From the NCBI GenBank assembly GCA_024349765.1, contig AP026073.1, positions 2,170,001 through 2,234,000 on the forward strand: DNA of 64,000 nt, given 5' to 3'. Of the stretch, positions 925 through 8,022 are shown in pieces. A program made the position numbers and the translations under genes. This DNA comes from Streptomyces nigrescens (GTDB lineage Bacteria; Actinomycetota; Actinomycetes; Streptomycetales; Streptomycetaceae). Positions within the stretch are counted from its first letter, which is position 1. Each line of letters opens with the position of its first letter. The notes under the pieces were generated by a model that had not been told where the DNA came from, searched no databases, and saw nothing but the letters and a program-made list of their open reading frames with translations.

Positions 925-1917
925 ATGGCGATTGCCAAGGCCGAGCGGCTGATGAATCTGGCGCTGTGCCTGCTGGGGACGCGACGCCCGCTGACCAAGC
1001 GCGAGCTCCGCTCGTCCATCGAGGCCTACCGCGAGGCCTTCGGGGCCGGTAACGGCACCCCGAGCGGCGACGAAGCCTTCAACCGGATGTTCGAGCGGGA
1101 CAAGGACGACCTGCGCGAGCTGGGCCTGGTCATCGAGACCGTCGAGGGCATCGACGGCGAGGTCGGCTACCTCGCCCGCCGCGACAGCAACCGGCTGCCT
1201 CCGATCACCCTGGACGCCGAGGAGGCCGCCGCCCTCGGGCTGGCCGCCAAGGTCTGGCAGCAGGCCCGGCTGGCCGGCGCCGCCAGCGGTGCGCTGCAGA
1301 AGCTGCGGGCGGCCGGGATGCCGCTGGCCGGGGACGGCGAGGACTACGACGCCGGGCAGCCGCACAGCGCGCTCGAACCCCGCATCCCCACCCACGAGGC
1401 CGCCTTCGAACCGCTGATGCTGGCCTGCCGCGACCGCCGCCCGGTCGTCTTCGACTACCGCAAGTCCAATGCCGCCCGCCCCGAGCAGCGCCAGGTCGAG
1501 CCGTGGATCCTGGAGTGCTGGCGCGGCCACTGGTACGTCGCCGGCTGGGACCGCGAGCGCAAGGCCGAGCGGGTCTTCCGGCTCTCCCGGATCACCGGCA
1601 AGGTCCGTTCCCGGCAAGGGAAGTTCACCGCGCCGGTGCCCGACCACGTCACCGTCCGCGAGACCGTCGAGAGCTGGGCCGGCGAGACCGCCACCGGCAC
1701 CGCCCGGATCAAGCTCCGCGCCGAGCACGGCTATCCGCTGCGGGCCCGCGCGCTGAGTGTCCGGGACCTGGGCGACGGCTGGGACGAGCTGGAGATCCCC
1801 AACGGCCACGGACTCGACGCCTGGCTGGTGGAGTTCGGGCCCGACGTGGTCGTACTGGAACCCGCGGAACTGCGCGCCGACGTCGTCGACCGGCTGCGCG
1901 CCGTGGCCAAGGGCTGA
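925..1917 (+). CDS. pafB: PafB, WYL-domain transcription regulator of the DNA-damage response
   Basis: 330 residues. The N-terminal third is a winged-helix domain (residues 1-75, LTKRELRSSIEAY). A WYL domain follows, with the partly degenerate WYL segment HWYVAGWD near residue 202, and then a C-terminal WCX region. PafB and PafC act together: in mycobacteria the heterodimer activates LexA-independent DNA-repair genes. The name comes from linkage to the Pup ligase gene pafA, which would lie upstream of this window. The ATG has an upstream GAGAAAGGG ribosome site. pafC follows after 21 bp, so the two are co-transcribed. Confidence 0.93.
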   Translation: MAIAKAERLMNLALCLLGTRRPLTKRELRSSIEAYREAFGAGNGTPSGDEAFNRMFERDKDDLRELGLVIETVEGIDGEVGYLARRDSNRLPPITLDAEEAAALGLAAKVWQQARLAGAASGALQKLRAAGMPLAGDGEDYDAGQPHSALEPRIPTHEAAFEPLMLACRDRRPVVFDYRKSNAARPEQRQVEPWILECWRGHWYVAGWDRERKAERVFRLSRITGKVRSRQGKFTAPVPDHVTVRETVESWAGETATGTARIKLRAEHGYPLRARALSVRDLGDGWDELEIPNGHGLDAWLVEFGPDVVVLEPAELRADVVDRLRAVAKG

Positions 1918-1938: not shown

Positions 1939-2889
1939 ATGGCCACGAACGCGATCGACCAGACCCGCCGGATGCTGTCGCTGGTGACGTATCTGCGCGA
2001 GCGCCCCGGCGCCCGCGTCGGCGACGTCGCGCGCGCCTTCGGCATCACCGAGGACGAGCTGATCGCCGACCTCGACGTGCTGCCCATGTGCGGCACGAGC
2101 TTCCGCGGCGGCGACCTGCTGGACATCGACACCGACGGCGACCGGATCTGGTGGCACAACCCCGACGACGTCGCCGAACCGCTGCGGCTGGCCGCCGACG
2201 AGGCCACCGCCCTGCTGGTCGCGGCCCGCGCGGTCGCCACCCTCCCGGGGCTGCGGGAGGGCGACCGGCAGGCGCTGCTGCGGGCCACCGCCAAGCTGGA
2301 GGCGGCGGCCGGTGAGGCGGCCGGCGCCAGCTCCCGGCTCTCGGTGACCTTCGAGTCCGAGGGCGGGGTGTTCGCCGACGTCGACCGGGCGATCGCCGAA
2401 CGGCGCCGGCTGTGGCTGCGCTACTACTCCCCGGCCCGCGACGAGCTGACCGAGCGCGAGGTGGACCCGATCCGGCTGTTCGCCGTCGGCCACACCTACA
2501 TGGAGGCCTGGTGCCGGCTCTCGGAGGCCCGGCGCACCTTCCGGCTCGACCGGGTCGCCGAGATCAAGCTGCTGGACGCGCCCGCCGACCCGCCCCCGGT
2601 CGAGCTGCGCGATCTGTCCGAGGGCCTGGTGCAGCCGGCCGCCGAGGACCCCGAGGTGTCCATCGAGGTCGGGCCGGGCGGCCGCTGGGTCGCCGAGTAC
2701 TACCCGCACGACAGCGCCGAGGAGCTGCCCGACGGCGGGCTGCGCATCACCCTGCGCACCCCCGACCCGGCCTCGCTGCGGCGGCTGGCGCTGCGGCTGG
2801 GCCGGGACGGCCGGATCGTGGCGCCGCAGGCGCTGGCGGACAGTGCCCGGCGCGCCGCCGAGCAGGCGCTCGCGGCGTACGGCGAGTGA
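1939..2889 (+). CDS. pafC: PafC, WYL-domain partner of PafB
   Basis: 316 residues with an N-terminal helix-turn-helix (RVGDVARAFGITEDELIADL, residues about 31-50) and a WYL domain. The signature tripeptide is replaced by HTYMEAWC near residue 185, followed by the FRLDRVAEI strand typical of the fold. It is the second subunit of the PafBC damage-response activator. It directly follows pafB and is probably translated from the same mRNA. A promoter matching the PafBC-dependent pattern lies 2.3 kb downstream in front of the helicase gene. Confidence 0.92.
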   Translation: MATNAIDQTRRMLSLVTYLRERPGARVGDVARAFGITEDELIADLDVLPMCGTSFRGGDLLDIDTDGDRIWWHNPDDVAEPLRLAADEATALLVAARAVATLPGLREGDRQALLRATAKLEAAAGEAAGASSRLSVTFESEGGVFADVDRAIAERRRLWLRYYSPARDELTEREVDPIRLFAVGHTYMEAWCRLSEARRTFRLDRVAEIKLLDAPADPPPVELRDLSEGLVQPAAEDPEVSIEVGPGGRWVAEYYPHDSAEELPDGGLRITLRTPDPASLRRLALRLGRDGRIVAPQALADSARRAAEQALAAYGE

Positions 2890-3711: not shown

Positions 3712-4008
3712 ATGCTCAGCAACCTGAGGGCCCCCGAGATCATCCTGATCCTCGTCGTTATCGTGCTGCTGTTCGGCGCGAAGAAGCTCCCGGACATGGC
3801 GCGTTCGCTCGGCAAGTCCGCGCGGATCCTCAAGAGCGAGGCCAAGGCGATGAAGAAGGACGGCGAGGCGGACGGTGCCGCGGCCACCTCGTCCGAGGCG
3901 TCCACCGACGCCGCCCAGCAGGCGCCCCGTACGATCCAGGCCGCCCCGGGCGATGTGAGCAGCTCGCGCCCGGTCGCCGAGCCGAACCACACGACCAAGC
4001 AGGGCTGA
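3712..4008 (+). CDS. tatA: TatA, twin-arginine translocase pore subunit
   Basis: 98 residues: a short N-terminal segment, one transmembrane helix (IILILVVIVLLFG, about residues 10-22), the conserved FGAKKLPDMARSLG hinge and start of the amphipathic helix, then an acidic Ala/Ser-rich tail. TatA oligomers form the passage for folded proteins across the plasma membrane. tatC lies 78 bp downstream on the same strand. At least one product in this window, the GH10-like protein at 51262, carries a plausible Tat signal. Confidence 0.95.
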   Translation: MLSNLRAPEIILILVVIVLLFGAKKLPDMARSLGKSARILKSEAKAMKKDGEADGAAATSSEASTDAAQQAPRTIQAAPGDVSSSRPVAEPNHTTKQG

Positions 4009-4086: not shown

Positions 4087-5049
4087 TTGCTCAAGTCTGC
4101 CCGCAAGCAGGAGAAGGACCCCGAGGGACGGATGCCCCTCGCGGCGCATCTGCGTGAGCTGCGCAACCGGCTGCTGAAGTCGGTGCTGGCGATCGGTGTG
4201 GTCACCGTCGTCGCGATGTGGCAGTACGACGCCATCGCCCACTTCATCACGGGGCCGGTCATCGACGCGGTCGGCTGCGGGCGCGGCAGCGTGACCGCTC
4301 CGCGGACGCATCCGTGTGCCGAGGTCACCGCCAACGGTCTGCTGGCGCCGTTCACCATCCTGCTCAAGCTGTCCCTCACGGTGGGCGTCGTCGGTGCCAG
4401 CCCGATCTGGCTCTACCAGCTCTGGGCCTTCCTCGCACCGGGCCTGCACCGGCACGAGAAGAAGTACGCGCTGAGCTTCGTCGGCGCCGGCGTACCGCTC
4501 TTCCTGGCCGGTGCCTACCTCGCCTACGCGGTGCTGCCGACCACGGCGGGCGCCCTGGTCGGGCTGACGCCGGACGACTGGGCCAACCTCTTCCCGGCCG
4601 ACGAGTTCTTCGACATCGTCACGCGCATGATCGTGGTCTTCGGCCTCGCCTTCGAACTTCCGCTGCTGCTGGTGCTGCTCAACTTCGGCGGGGTGGTCAC
4701 CGGGCGACGGATCATGAGCTGGTGGCGGTTCATGGTCCTCGGCATCACGATCTTCGCGGCCATCGCCACCCCGACCGGTGACCCGCTGACCATGAGCCTG
4801 CTGGCCGCCCCGATCGTGGTGCTGTACTTCGGCGCCGCCGGCATCTGCCTCTTCAACGACCGCCGCCGCCGGCTGGGCAACCCGGACGCGGGGCTGAGCG
4901 ACGACGAGGCGTCCCGGCTGGATCTGACGCCGTCGGACGTCGGGGAGATCGAGTCGGTGTCCTCGGGGCGGATGCTGCCGGAGCAGGCGAGCGGCGAACC
5001 GGACGACGGCGCAGGGCCACGACGCGGTGGTTTCGACGACGTGACGTGA
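4087..5049 (+). CDS. tatC: TatC, twin-arginine translocase receptor subunit
   Basis: 320 residues. The start is a TTG with GAGGAAG 4 bp upstream; the conserved MPLAAHLRELRNRL segment then falls near residue 17, as expected. Six membrane helices are visible, with the conserved FELP motif near residue 193. A hydrophilic tail of roughly 60 residues, rich in Asp, Ser and Gly, extends past the last helix. TatC recognises the twin-arginine signal peptide. A stem-loop terminator begins 25 bp after the stop. Confidence 0.95.
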   Translation: MLKSARKQEKDPEGRMPLAAHLRELRNRLLKSVLAIGVVTVVAMWQYDAIAHFITGPVIDAVGCGRGSVTAPRTHPCAEVTANGLLAPFTILLKLSLTVGVVGASPIWLYQLWAFLAPGLHRHEKKYALSFVGAGVPLFLAGAYLAYAVLPTTAGALVGLTPDDWANLFPADEFFDIVTRMIVVFGLAFELPLLLVLLNFGGVVTGRRIMSWWRFMVLGITIFAAIATPTGDPLTMSLLAAPIVVLYFGAAGICLFNDRRRRLGNPDAGLSDDEASRLDLTPSDVGEIESVSSGRMLPEQASGEPDDGAGPRRGGFDDVT

Positions 5050-5073
5050 GGTGACGACCCCTCACATGCCGTG

Positions 5074-5105
5074 ACGGCCCCGGGCTCGGTTCGAGCCGGG
5101 GCCGT
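5074..5105 (+). terminator. Terminator after tatC
   Basis: Stem of 14 bp with one bulged G (ACGGCCCCGG...CCGGGGCCGT) and a 3-4 nt loop, followed by TT and a C. It ends the paf-tat transcription unit before the helicase promoter. Confidence 0.75.
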
Positions 5106-5172
5106 TTCGCATGCCGGGAACGTTCCTCGCCGGGTCCCCGCTCGGTAAAGGCCGCACATAAAGATCGGGTCG

Positions 5173-5195
5173 TTGTCAGAGGTGGCCGGTAGGCT
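5173..5195 (+). promoter_or_regulatory. PafBC-type (RecA-NDp) DNA-damage promoter of the helicase gene
   Basis: TTGTCAGAG, 8 bp, then TAGGCT. The actinobacterial LexA-independent damage promoter is TTGTCRGTG-N8-TANNNT, so there is one mismatch (GAG for GTG), an exact spacer and an exact -10. The -10 ends 10 bp before the ATG at 5206, predicting a transcript with almost no 5' leader. Confidence 0.65.
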
Positions 5196-5205
5196 CGTAA
5201 GCACG

Positions 5206-8022
5206 ATGACCGAGGACATGTCCCCTGCTGAGCGCTATGCCGCCGCCAAGCTCCGGGCGGCCGAGCAGGCCACCGCACTCACCGGTTTCCGGGAGCTGTA
5301 CGACTTCGAGCTGGACCCGTTCCAGGTCGACGCCTGCCAGGCCCTGGAGGCCGGTCAGGGCGTGCTGGTCGCCGCCCCCACCGGATCCGGCAAGACGATC
5401 GTCGGCGAATTCGCCGTCCACCTGGCCCTGGAGCAGGGCCGCAAATGCTTCTACACCACGCCGATCAAGGCACTGTCCAACCAGAAGTACCAGGACCTGG
5501 TCAAGCGGTACGGCGCGGCGAAGGTCGGCCTGCTGACCGGCGACAACAGCGTCAACTCCGAGGCGCCGGTGATCGTGATGACCACCGAGGTCCTGCGGAA
5601 CATGCTCTACGCCGGCTCCCAGTCGCTGATCGGCCTGGCGTACGTCGTCATGGACGAGGTGCACTACCTCTCCGACCGCTTCCGCGGCGCCGTCTGGGAA
5701 GAGGTGATCATCCACCTCCCCGAATCGGTGACCCTGGTCTCGCTGTCCGCGACGGTCTCCAACGCCGAGGAGTTCGGTGACTGGCTCGACACGGTGCGTG
5801 GTGACACCGCCGTGATCGTCTCCGAGCACCGCCCCGTCCCGCTGTGGCAGCACGTCCTCGCCGGCCGCCGGATATACGACCTCTTCGAGGAGCGGGACGG
5901 CGGCAACGGCGGCCGCCGGGAGGTCAATCCCGACCTCGAACGACTCGCACGGATGGAGAACAGCCGGCCGACCTTCGGCCGGGACAAGCGCCGGGGCCGC
6001 ACGATGCGGGAGGCGGACCGCGAGCGCGAGCGGCGGCAGCGGGCGCGGATCTGGACGCCGAGCCGGCCCGAGGTCATCGACCGCCTCGACAACGAGGGCC
6101 TGCTGCCCGCGATCACGTTCATCTTCAGCCGGGCCGGCTGCGAGGCCGCCGTCCAGCAGTGCCTGTATTCGGGGCTGCGGCTCAACGACGCGGAGGGCCG
6201 CGAACAGGTCCGCCGCATAGTGGAGGCCCGGACAGCCGGGATCCCGGACGACGACCTCCATGTGCTGGGCTATTACGAATGGCTGGAGGGCCTGGAGCGG
6301 GGCATCGCGGCGCACCACGCCGGCATGCTGCCGACCTTCAAGGAAGTCGTCGAGGAACTCTTCGTCAAGGGCCTGGTGAAGGCCGTCTTCGCCACCGAGA
6401 CCCTGGCGCTGGGCATCAACATGCCGGCCCGTTCGGTGGTGTTGGAAAAGCTCGTGAAGTGGAACGGCGAGCAGCACGCCGACATCACCCCCGGCGAGTA
6501 CACCCAGTTGACCGGCCGGGCCGGGCGCCGCGGCATCGACATCGAGGGCCATGCGGTGGTGCTGTGGCAGCGCGGGATGAACCCGGCCGCGCTGGCCGGG
6601 CTCGCCGGCACCCGGACGTACCCGCTGCGGTCGTCGTTCAAGCCGTCGTACAACATGGCGGTCAACCTCGTCTCGCAGTTCGGCCGGCACCGTTCGCGCG
6701 AGCTGCTGGAGATGTCGTTCGCGCAGTTCCAGGCCGACAAGTCGGTGGTCGGCATCTCCCGGCAGGTGCAGCGCAACGAGGAGGGCCTGGACGGCTACCG
6801 CGCCTCGATGACCTGCCACCTCGGCGACTTCGAGGAGTACTCCCGGCTGCGGCGGGAGTTGAAGGACCGTGAGACCGAGCTGGCCAAGCAGGGCGCCGCG
6901 CAGCGCCGGGTGGCGGCCGCGGCGGCCCTGGAGAAGCTGAAGCCGGGCGATGTGATCCATGTGCCGACCGGCAAGTACGCCGGCCTGGCGCTGGTCCTCG
7001 ACCCCGGTATGCCGTCGGGCCGGACCAACGGCCACCGTGGCTTCGACTCGCAGGACGGCCCGCGACCGCTGGTGCTGACCGCCGAGCGGCAGGTCAAGCG
7101 GCTCGGCTCGATCGACTTCCCGGTGCCGGTGACGGCGCTGGACCGGATGCGGATCCCCAAGTCGTTCAACGCCCGCAGCCCGCAGTCCCGCCGCGATCTG
7201 GCGTCCGCGCTGCGCACGAAGGCCGGGCACATCGTGCCGTCGCGCCACCGCAAGCCCCGGTCCGCGGCGATCGACGACGGCGAGATCTCCCGGCTGCGCA
7301 CCGCGATCCGTGCGCACCCCTGCCACGGCTGTGACGAGCGCGAGGACCACGCGCGCTGGGCGGAGCGCTACCACCGCCTCCAGCGGGACACCCGCCAGCT
7401 GGAGCGCCGCATCGAGGGCCGGACGAACACCATCGCCCGCACCTTCGACCGGATCTGTGCGCTGCTGACCGAGCTGGGCTACCTCGAAGGCGACGAGGTC
7501 ACCGACGAGGGCCGCCGGCTCGCCCGGCTCTACGGCGAGCTGGACCTGCTGGCCAGCGAGTGCCTGCGGGACGGCGTTTGGGAGGACCTCGGCCCGGCCG
7601 AACTCGCCGCCTGCGCCTCCGCGTTGGTGTACGAGGCCCGGCAGGCGGACGACGCGGTGGCCCCCAAGCTGCCGGCCGGCAAGGCGCGGGACGCGCTGGG
7701 CGAGATGGTCCGCATCTGGGGCCGGCTGGACGCCCTGGAGGAGGACCACCGGATCAACCAGGCCGAGGGCGTCGGCCAGCGCGAACCGGACCTCGGCTTC
7801 GCCTGGGCCGCCTATCGCTGGGCGGCCGGTTTCGGCCTGGACGAGGTGCTCCGGGAGGCGGAGATGCCCGCCGGTGACTTCGTCCGCTGGTGCAAGCAAC
7901 TGGTCGACATCCTCGGCCAGATCGCGGCCGCCGCCCCGGCCGGCAGCTCGGTGGCGAAGAACGCCCGCCGGGCCATGGACGGTGTGCTGCGCGGCGTGGT
8001 CGCGTACTCCTCGGTCGGCTGA
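5206..8022 (+). CDS. Ski2/Mtr4-like superfamily 2 RNA helicase (HelY family)
   Basis: 938 residues. The ATG at 5206 is preferred over an upstream TTG because that TTG lies inside the promoter -35 element. Walker A is APTGSGKT near residue 60, the Walker B/DEVH box is VVMDEVHYLS near 150, motif III is LSATV near 180, and the second RecA lobe ends in TGRAGRRGID near 445. The C-terminus carries a DSHCT-type helical domain (GRLDALEEDHRI, FVRWCKQLVDILGQI). A linker rich in Arg and Glu interrupts the core near residues 245-290. Family members unwind structured RNA for turnover. The promoter suggests DNA-damage induction. Confidence 0.93.
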   Translation: MTEDMSPAERYAAAKLRAAEQATALTGFRELYDFELDPFQVDACQALEAGQGVLVAAPTGSGKTIVGEFAVHLALEQGRKCFYTTPIKALSNQKYQDLVKRYGAAKVGLLTGDNSVNSEAPVIVMTTEVLRNMLYAGSQSLIGLAYVVMDEVHYLSDRFRGAVWEEVIIHLPESVTLVSLSATVSNAEEFGDWLDTVRGDTAVIVSEHRPVPLWQHVLAGRRIYDLFEERDGGNGGRREVNPDLERLARMENSRPTFGRDKRRGRTMREADRERERRQRARIWTPSRPEVIDRLDNEGLLPAITFIFSRAGCEAAVQQCLYSGLRLNDAEGREQVRRIVEARTAGIPDDDLHVLGYYEWLEGLERGIAAHHAGMLPTFKEVVEELFVKGLVKAVFATETLALGINMPARSVVLEKLVKWNGEQHADITPGEYTQLTGRAGRRGIDIEGHAVVLWQRGMNPAALAGLAGTRTYPLRSSFKPSYNMAVNLVSQFGRHRSRELLEMSFAQFQADKSVVGISRQVQRNEEGLDGYRASMTCHLGDFEEYSRLRRELKDRETELAKQGAAQRRVAAAAALEKLKPGDVIHVPTGKYAGLALVLDPGMPSGRTNGHRGFDSQDGPRPLVLTAERQVKRLGSIDFPVPVTALDRMRIPKSFNARSPQSRRDLASALRTKAGHIVPSRHRKPRSAAIDDGEISRLRTAIRAHPCHGCDEREDHARWAERYHRLQRDTRQLERRIEGRTNTIARTFDRICALLTELGYLEGDEVTDEGRRLARLYGELDLLASECLRDGVWEDLGPAELAACASALVYEARQADDAVAPKLPAGKARDALGEMVRIWGRLDALEEDHRINQAEGVGQREPDLGFAWAAYRWAAGFGLDEVLREAEMPAGDFVRWCKQLVDILGQIAAAAPAGSSVAKNARRAMDGVLRGVVAYSSVG

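Follow-up and report, generated by a model that had tools for sequence, protein, structure and literature searches.

A predicted near-leaderless helY promoter in Streptomyces nigrescens with a conserved PafBC-type box and a candidate WblC/WhiB7 block upstream of one -10 element

Background

Two described systems come close to the promoter considered here. The first is the PafBC-dependent RecA-NDp (P1) promoter of mycobacteria, in which PafB reads a motif at -26, PafC binds sigma region 4 and single-stranded DNA switches the complex on (PMC11804915). In Streptomyces, RecA-NDp promoters were noted earlier for recA and for SCO6735 of S. coelicolor (PMC5087735). A paper on LexA in S. venezuelae reports that in an initial search the PafBC motif known from M. 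smegmatis seemed not to be conserved in that species, and leaves it to be shown whether a LexA-independent damage response of this kind exists in Streptomyces (PMC9380542).

The second system is the WblC/WhiB7 promoter. WhiB7 contacts both sigma region 4 and an AT-rich motif lying above the -35 (PMC3905903), and the WblC promoter logo comprises GAAAWY, 3 bp, the -35 element, 16-19 bp and TANNNT, with transcription of WblC targets starting mostly 7-8 bp after the -10 (PMC7157823). The S. coelicolor helicase gene helY (SCO1631), taken here as the ortholog of the helY under study, is among the genes activated by WblC according to ChIP-seq and RNA-seq, with an RNA fold change of 5.1; tetracycline led to a WblC-dependent enrichment of its product on ribosomes, and deleting the gene changed tetracycline sensitivity only marginally, by a factor of two (PMC7157823). 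In the open-licence literature we found nothing that connects helY with PafBC in Streptomyces, nor damage-induction or pafBC-mutant data for helY in this genus.

Results and discussion

Organisation of the helY locus

We analysed a 64-kb window (the whole stretch of S. nigrescens DNA under study) in which a helicase gene follows pafBC and two tat genes. The features of the locus are:

925 to 1917, plus strand: pafB, a WYL-WCX regulator (Pfam WYL and WCX; end-to-end alignment with chain 7p5x_AY, E 5e-54)
1939 to 2889, plus strand: pafC (Pfam HTH_PafC; PafC chain 7p5x_AX, E 7e-56)
3712 to 4008, plus strand: tatA (NCBIfam TatA, over cut-off)
4087 to 5049, plus strand: tatC (NCBIfam TIGR00945, over cut-off)
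5065 to 5113, plus strand: strong hairpin between tatC and helY (MFE -37 kcal/mol, z -5.5; inverted arms 5074-5083/5096-5105)
5206 to 8022, plus strand: helY, a Ski2/MTR4-like helicase with a DSHCT domain (Pfam DEAD, Helicase_C and DSHCT)

The gene name was inferred from family and neighbourhood, the product having both the helicase core and the DSHCT domain of a HelY/Ski2-like protein by Pfam. We took the ATG at 5206 as the start codon, since MTE/MTD is the conserved start in relatives; the TTG start in the list of open reading frames, at 5173, falls within the promoter box described below. The hairpin is a possible end of the tatC transcript, and no terminator with a T-run was found. A 907-aa open frame antisense to helY (window positions 5176-7899, minus strand) most likely results from the codon usage of high-GC DNA.

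The initial annotation had stressed that regulator and target are neighbours. As a description this stands, pafB and pafC lying upstream of helY at the distance of 2-4 kb that it gave, and both genes of the regulator are thus present in the genome; as evidence for regulation, adjacency was rejected as ancestral synteny. Among 59 helY loci from outside the order, sampled from 148 genomes of the class, 55 have pafC no more than 8 kb from helY (hand count), and the promoter box is present at none, so that adjacency stays where the box is absent and proximity says nothing about control. In three of the other four (G253, G193 and G195) pafC and helY are on different contigs, and G201 has no PafC match.

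A PafBC-type box before helY

Three promoter features were identified between the hairpin and the start codon:

5173 to 5181, plus strand: PafBC/RecA-NDp-type -26 box TTGTCAGAG (consensus TTGTCRGTG; TGTC core conserved)
5190 to 5195, plus strand: -10 element TAGGCT of the housekeeping type TANNNT
5202 to 5203, plus strand: predicted transcription start, giving a leader of 3-4 nt

We could confirm the box proposed by the initial annotation, one mismatch and exact spacing before the helicase ATG included: TTGTCAGAG is followed by N8 and TAGGCT, with the ATG at 10 bases past the -10. The single mismatch to TTGTCRGTG is T to A at position 8, the 3' half reading AGAG. The very short leader that had also been predicted agrees with a start placed 7-8 bp past the -10, the rule for WblC targets (PMC7157823). 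The TTGTC core lies 17 bp before TANNNT, and a search of 4900-5400 yielded no sigma-70-type -35/-10 pair, leaving the -10 with no normally spaced -35, as in PafBC promoters. TTGTC was itself considered as a -35 element and rejected, as 11 bp would then separate it from the -10. A script search of 4901-5300 found no LexA-like repeat near helY. By sequence the helY site is of PafBC type, conserved and correctly spaced.

RecA-NDp-type sites across the genome and the class

In the whole genome TTGTCNGNG-N8-TANNNT occurs 46 times (once for the reversed control), and the exact RGTG form 43 times (control 0). Position 8 is T in 43 of the 46, and helY alone has A; the mismatch thus falls where nearly all other copies agree, and the helY copy of this genome may be weaker than the initial annotation implied. 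The sites precede genes for recA, uvrB, uvrC, a UvrD-like helicase, UDG, MGMT, an AlkZ-like protein, ExoIII, RuvA, DnaX and MazG, among others (Pfam); many other downstream ORFs have no match or belong to families without an evident repair role. As at helY, the start codon follows within 10 nt of the -10 at 31 of the 46 sites by the longest-ORF rule. These promoters thus share with the mycobacterial RecA-NDp/P1 promoters the -26 TTGTC box, the N8 to TANNNT, the lack of a -35 and the repair genes downstream, and are often near-leaderless. What sets helY apart from RecA-NDp/P1 promoters is the A at position 8, an RNA helicase as target and a putative second activator box upstream.

Several further genes follow RecA-NDp sites. 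Two exact sites on contig C2 (1.07 Mb; L183 and L182) lie 6-7 nt before the ATG of a DUF6333 and a leucine-rich-repeat gene, which are candidate damage-response genes. Genes whose function is unknown or unexpected in this setting, namely DUF1877, DUF2797, YjbR, SUKH-1, WGR and mycothiol-isomerase-like ones, follow sites at L173, L180, L028, L169, L008 and L181, mostly within 10 nt of the -10.

Exact RecA-NDp sites were found in all 121 sampled genomes of the genus, at 5-44 each (reversed control 0-2), and at least one was present in 109 of 148 genomes of the class. For the genomes sampled these motif counts disagree with the remark in PMC9380542 that the motif seemed not to be conserved in S. 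venezuelae. Among class genomes lacking both PafB and PafC, three that are 97-100 % complete (G201, G249 and G301) have no site and one (G240, 91 %) has one, and six less complete genomes have 0 to 5. This is consistent with the motif being absent where pafBC is absent, in a comparison underpowered by too few good genomes.

That the box is read by some other factor, such as the ClgR-like regulator proposed in mycobacteria, instead of by PafBC seems very improbable. The PafB encoded here aligns over its full length, N-terminal region included, to the PafB chain of PDB 7p5x, which we take to be the same PafBC complex as in the published M. smegmatis structure, and this argues against another reader. 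So does that cryo-EM structure itself, with PafB bound at the -26 motif (PMC11804915), against which stands the proposal of a ClpR/ClgR-like regulator for the motif by Wang et al. 2011, as cited in PMC5656591.

Conservation of the helY box

On the window alone the match could have been accidental. With up to two mismatches allowed there are 3 sites in the 64 kb where 1.24 are expected, 12 of 100 shuffles also give at least 3, and the helY site, the sole one with a single mismatch, is itself imperfect. We therefore turn to its conservation, for which two sets of loci, which may overlap in species, were used. The named set came from a scan of public genomes by a pattern of the -10, start and first codons, with the box left out to avoid circularity; among the matches listed there are 118 stretches, 117 of which encode HelY as judged by the N-terminus and one (L355) another gene, and 90 nt of upstream sequence are present in 116 of them (115 helY, 1 not). 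The genus set consists of upstream regions from 90 of the 119 genomes with a full-length helY match (30 given, 45 plus-strand and 15 minus-strand places, chosen for convenience) and 3 genus loci found otherwise. Three loci (L096, L247 and L383) end at contig edges.

Among the matches listed, TGTC is at exactly the same place in all 117 named helY loci and is missing from L355, and further upstream the commonest background 4-mer is common to at most 13 of 116. This conservation excludes a chance resemblance, which is hardly credible any longer, and bears out the initial judgement that the match was unlikely to be accidental. Close relatives have kept the box: TGTC-N12-TANNNT precedes helY in 92 of 93 genus loci, the exception (L149) reading CGTC. 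In the family's other genera all 20 loci have it, and in 5 of these it lies ahead of an apparently longer N-terminus.

Beyond the family the box becomes patchy. In other families of the same order it is at helY in 4 of 15 loci (L410, L412, L415 and L416), a distribution which may reflect a single gain with losses or repeated gain. Outside the order, where the box is absent from all 59 loci, TANNNT nevertheless lies 4-11 nt before the start codon in 49 of the 59 (control windows 1-4 of 59); since these loci have the -10 by the start codon and no box, the near-leaderless helY start looks older than the box.

Variation in the 3' half of the box

The RGTG half is less constant than the core, being present in 40 of 92 genus boxes and, among the matches listed, in 58 of 117 named ones. 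We compared two repair genes. At uvrB (30 loci) the core is present in 29, the other having N7, and RGTG in 28 of the 29; at xthA (30 loci, L379-L408) TGTC is present in all 30 and RGTG in only 9. The boxes of helY and xthA vary alike (AGAG, GGAC, GTAC) around a constant TGTC and -10. As the two drift in the same way, the helY box of this genome appears off-consensus but not unusual by sequence, and RGTG is not decisive for the PafBC type, given that it is not strict at a known repair gene. The variation of the xthA box across the genus also means that strict motif searches may miss true regulon members.

A second conserved block

A further feature lies upstream of the box:

5158 to 5166, plus strand: AT-rich block ATAAAGATC, in the place of a WblC/WhiB7 box above the -35 region (conservation in named loci)

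The block, as ATAAAGATC or GATAATGATC, is conserved between tatC and the TGTC box. Among the matches listed, AA is present at the block in 110 of 116 named loci and an AAWGATC-like block in 106 of 116, and the WblC logo GAAAWY matches in register at 4 or more of its 6 letters in 100 of 116 named promoters, compared with 15, 6, 9 and 13 of 116 at four shifted positions. Three order-level relatives have GAAATC, 6 of 6 letters, with a TGTC box downstream. At the helY of a strain named S. violaceoruber, a species close to S. coelicolor, GATAATGATCGTCCTG is immediately followed by a perfect TTGTCAGTG-N8-TACGCT, GATAAT matching 5 of 6 letters of the logo. The S. nigrescens genome also encodes a WhiB-like protein with an AT-hook-like RGRPRKNP tail (L260), as a WblC-activated promoter would require. 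On this conservation the block is a candidate WblC site. The resemblance to WblC promoters lies in an AT-rich block at the right distance and in S. coelicolor helY as a listed target (PMC7157823); the differences are that the helY spacer holds a conserved PafBC-type box and that the block of S. nigrescens matches only 3 of 6 logo letters. Both the second block and the published WblC/WhiB7 activation of helY (PMC7157823) had been missed in the initial annotation.

On a rival reading WblC alone controls helY, and TGTC is conserved for some other reason, for instance because it serves the HrdB-WblC complex as a spacer or makes a discriminator contact. In its favour are the published status of helY as a WblC target (PMC7157823) and the departure from RGTG in about half of the helY boxes, with TGTC and the -10 unchanged. 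We consider it unlikely, given that 35 of 93 genus loci have the complete TTGTCRGTG correctly spaced, that none of the genome's 45 other RecA-NDp-type sites has the AAWGATC block at this place and that the boxes of xthA drift alike. The converse, that PafBC alone acts in this strain and the block is either a general UP element contacted by the alpha subunit or what is left of a WblC box, is quite improbable. It could draw on the 3 of 6 match of the S. nigrescens block, and UP elements can consist of A-rich tracts at about -38 to -44. Most relatives, however, match the logo in register at 4-5 of 6 letters (named loci, among the matches listed) and three from the order at 6 of 6, and the S. coelicolor ortholog is activated by WblC (PMC7157823).

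Among the 45 other sites of the genome, 5 reach at least 4 of 6 letters of the WblC logo. The best is at an ABC transporter gene (L172; C1:6217754-6220776, site at 1501), with GAAATC in register, 6 of 6, and a perfect RecA-NDp site TTGTCAGTG. No evident ortholog with both boxes was seen among the 33 exact sites of one relative (G036). The promoter may be a second one with two boxes, and we offer it as a lead.

Model of helY control

The reading that we prefer is that helY probably has a near-leaderless promoter in which a single -10 goes with two activator boxes, WblC serving translation stress and PafBC serving DNA damage. The gene would have its own promoter, set off from tatC by the hairpin, at which the housekeeping sigma factor HrdB would read the TAGGCT -10. 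With no usable -35, the missing contact would be supplied by either of the two activators. Upon DNA damage, PafBC loaded with single-stranded DNA would act on the helY promoter at the TGTC box, at about -26, adapting sigma region 4; under translation stress, WblC/WhiB7 would sit on sigma region 4 with its AT-hook on the AT-rich block just above the -35 position. Either route would yield a nearly leaderless helY mRNA and more of the RNA helicase, for which stalled ribosomes or RNA:DNA hybrids are possible targets. As both activators would use sigma region 4 and the same -10, we infer that they act one at a time, excluding each other on sigma.

In this scheme the boxes with their spacing and conservation, the repair genes behind the motif, pafBC and the WblC-like gene were observed in the present analysis. 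The control of helY by WblC is taken from S. coelicolor, and the mechanisms of PafBC and WhiB7 from mycobacteria. Counterpoints are the A at position 8 of the S. nigrescens box, the 3 of 6 match of its AT block and a WblC result that comes from S. coelicolor and not from this strain. In another organism a G-quadruplex ligand is reported to have raised helY along with dnaE2 and imuA/B. As a single gene with two stress inputs, helY resembles M. smegmatis recA, with its RecA-independent promoter P1 and second promoter P2 (PMC5656591). There the gene has two promoters, whereas helY would have two activator boxes on one -10. The P2 promoter of recA is a LexA promoter.

A fuller account is put forward tentatively, as quite possible: the boxes of two sigma adaptors, WblC and PafBC, have a -10 in common and the adaptors compete for sigma region 4, forming an OR gate that would supply HelY when either translation or DNA is under attack; the arrangement would be conserved throughout the Streptomycetaceae and in some relatives at order level, the box having been added to an older near-leaderless start, and the ABC transporter promoter may share the design.

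Conclusions

The pair of boxes on one -10 is a more interesting object than the pafBC neighbourhood. The presence of exact sites in every sampled genome of the genus, and before repair genes in S. nigrescens, bears on the remark left open in PMC9380542. If the preferred reading holds, a LexA-independent damage response and the antibiotic-stress regulon would meet at one promoter resolved to the base, and two sigma adaptors on one -10 would offer a clean test bed for competition between such factors. It would also suggest that this RNA helicase acts at the meeting point of DNA damage and stalled translation.
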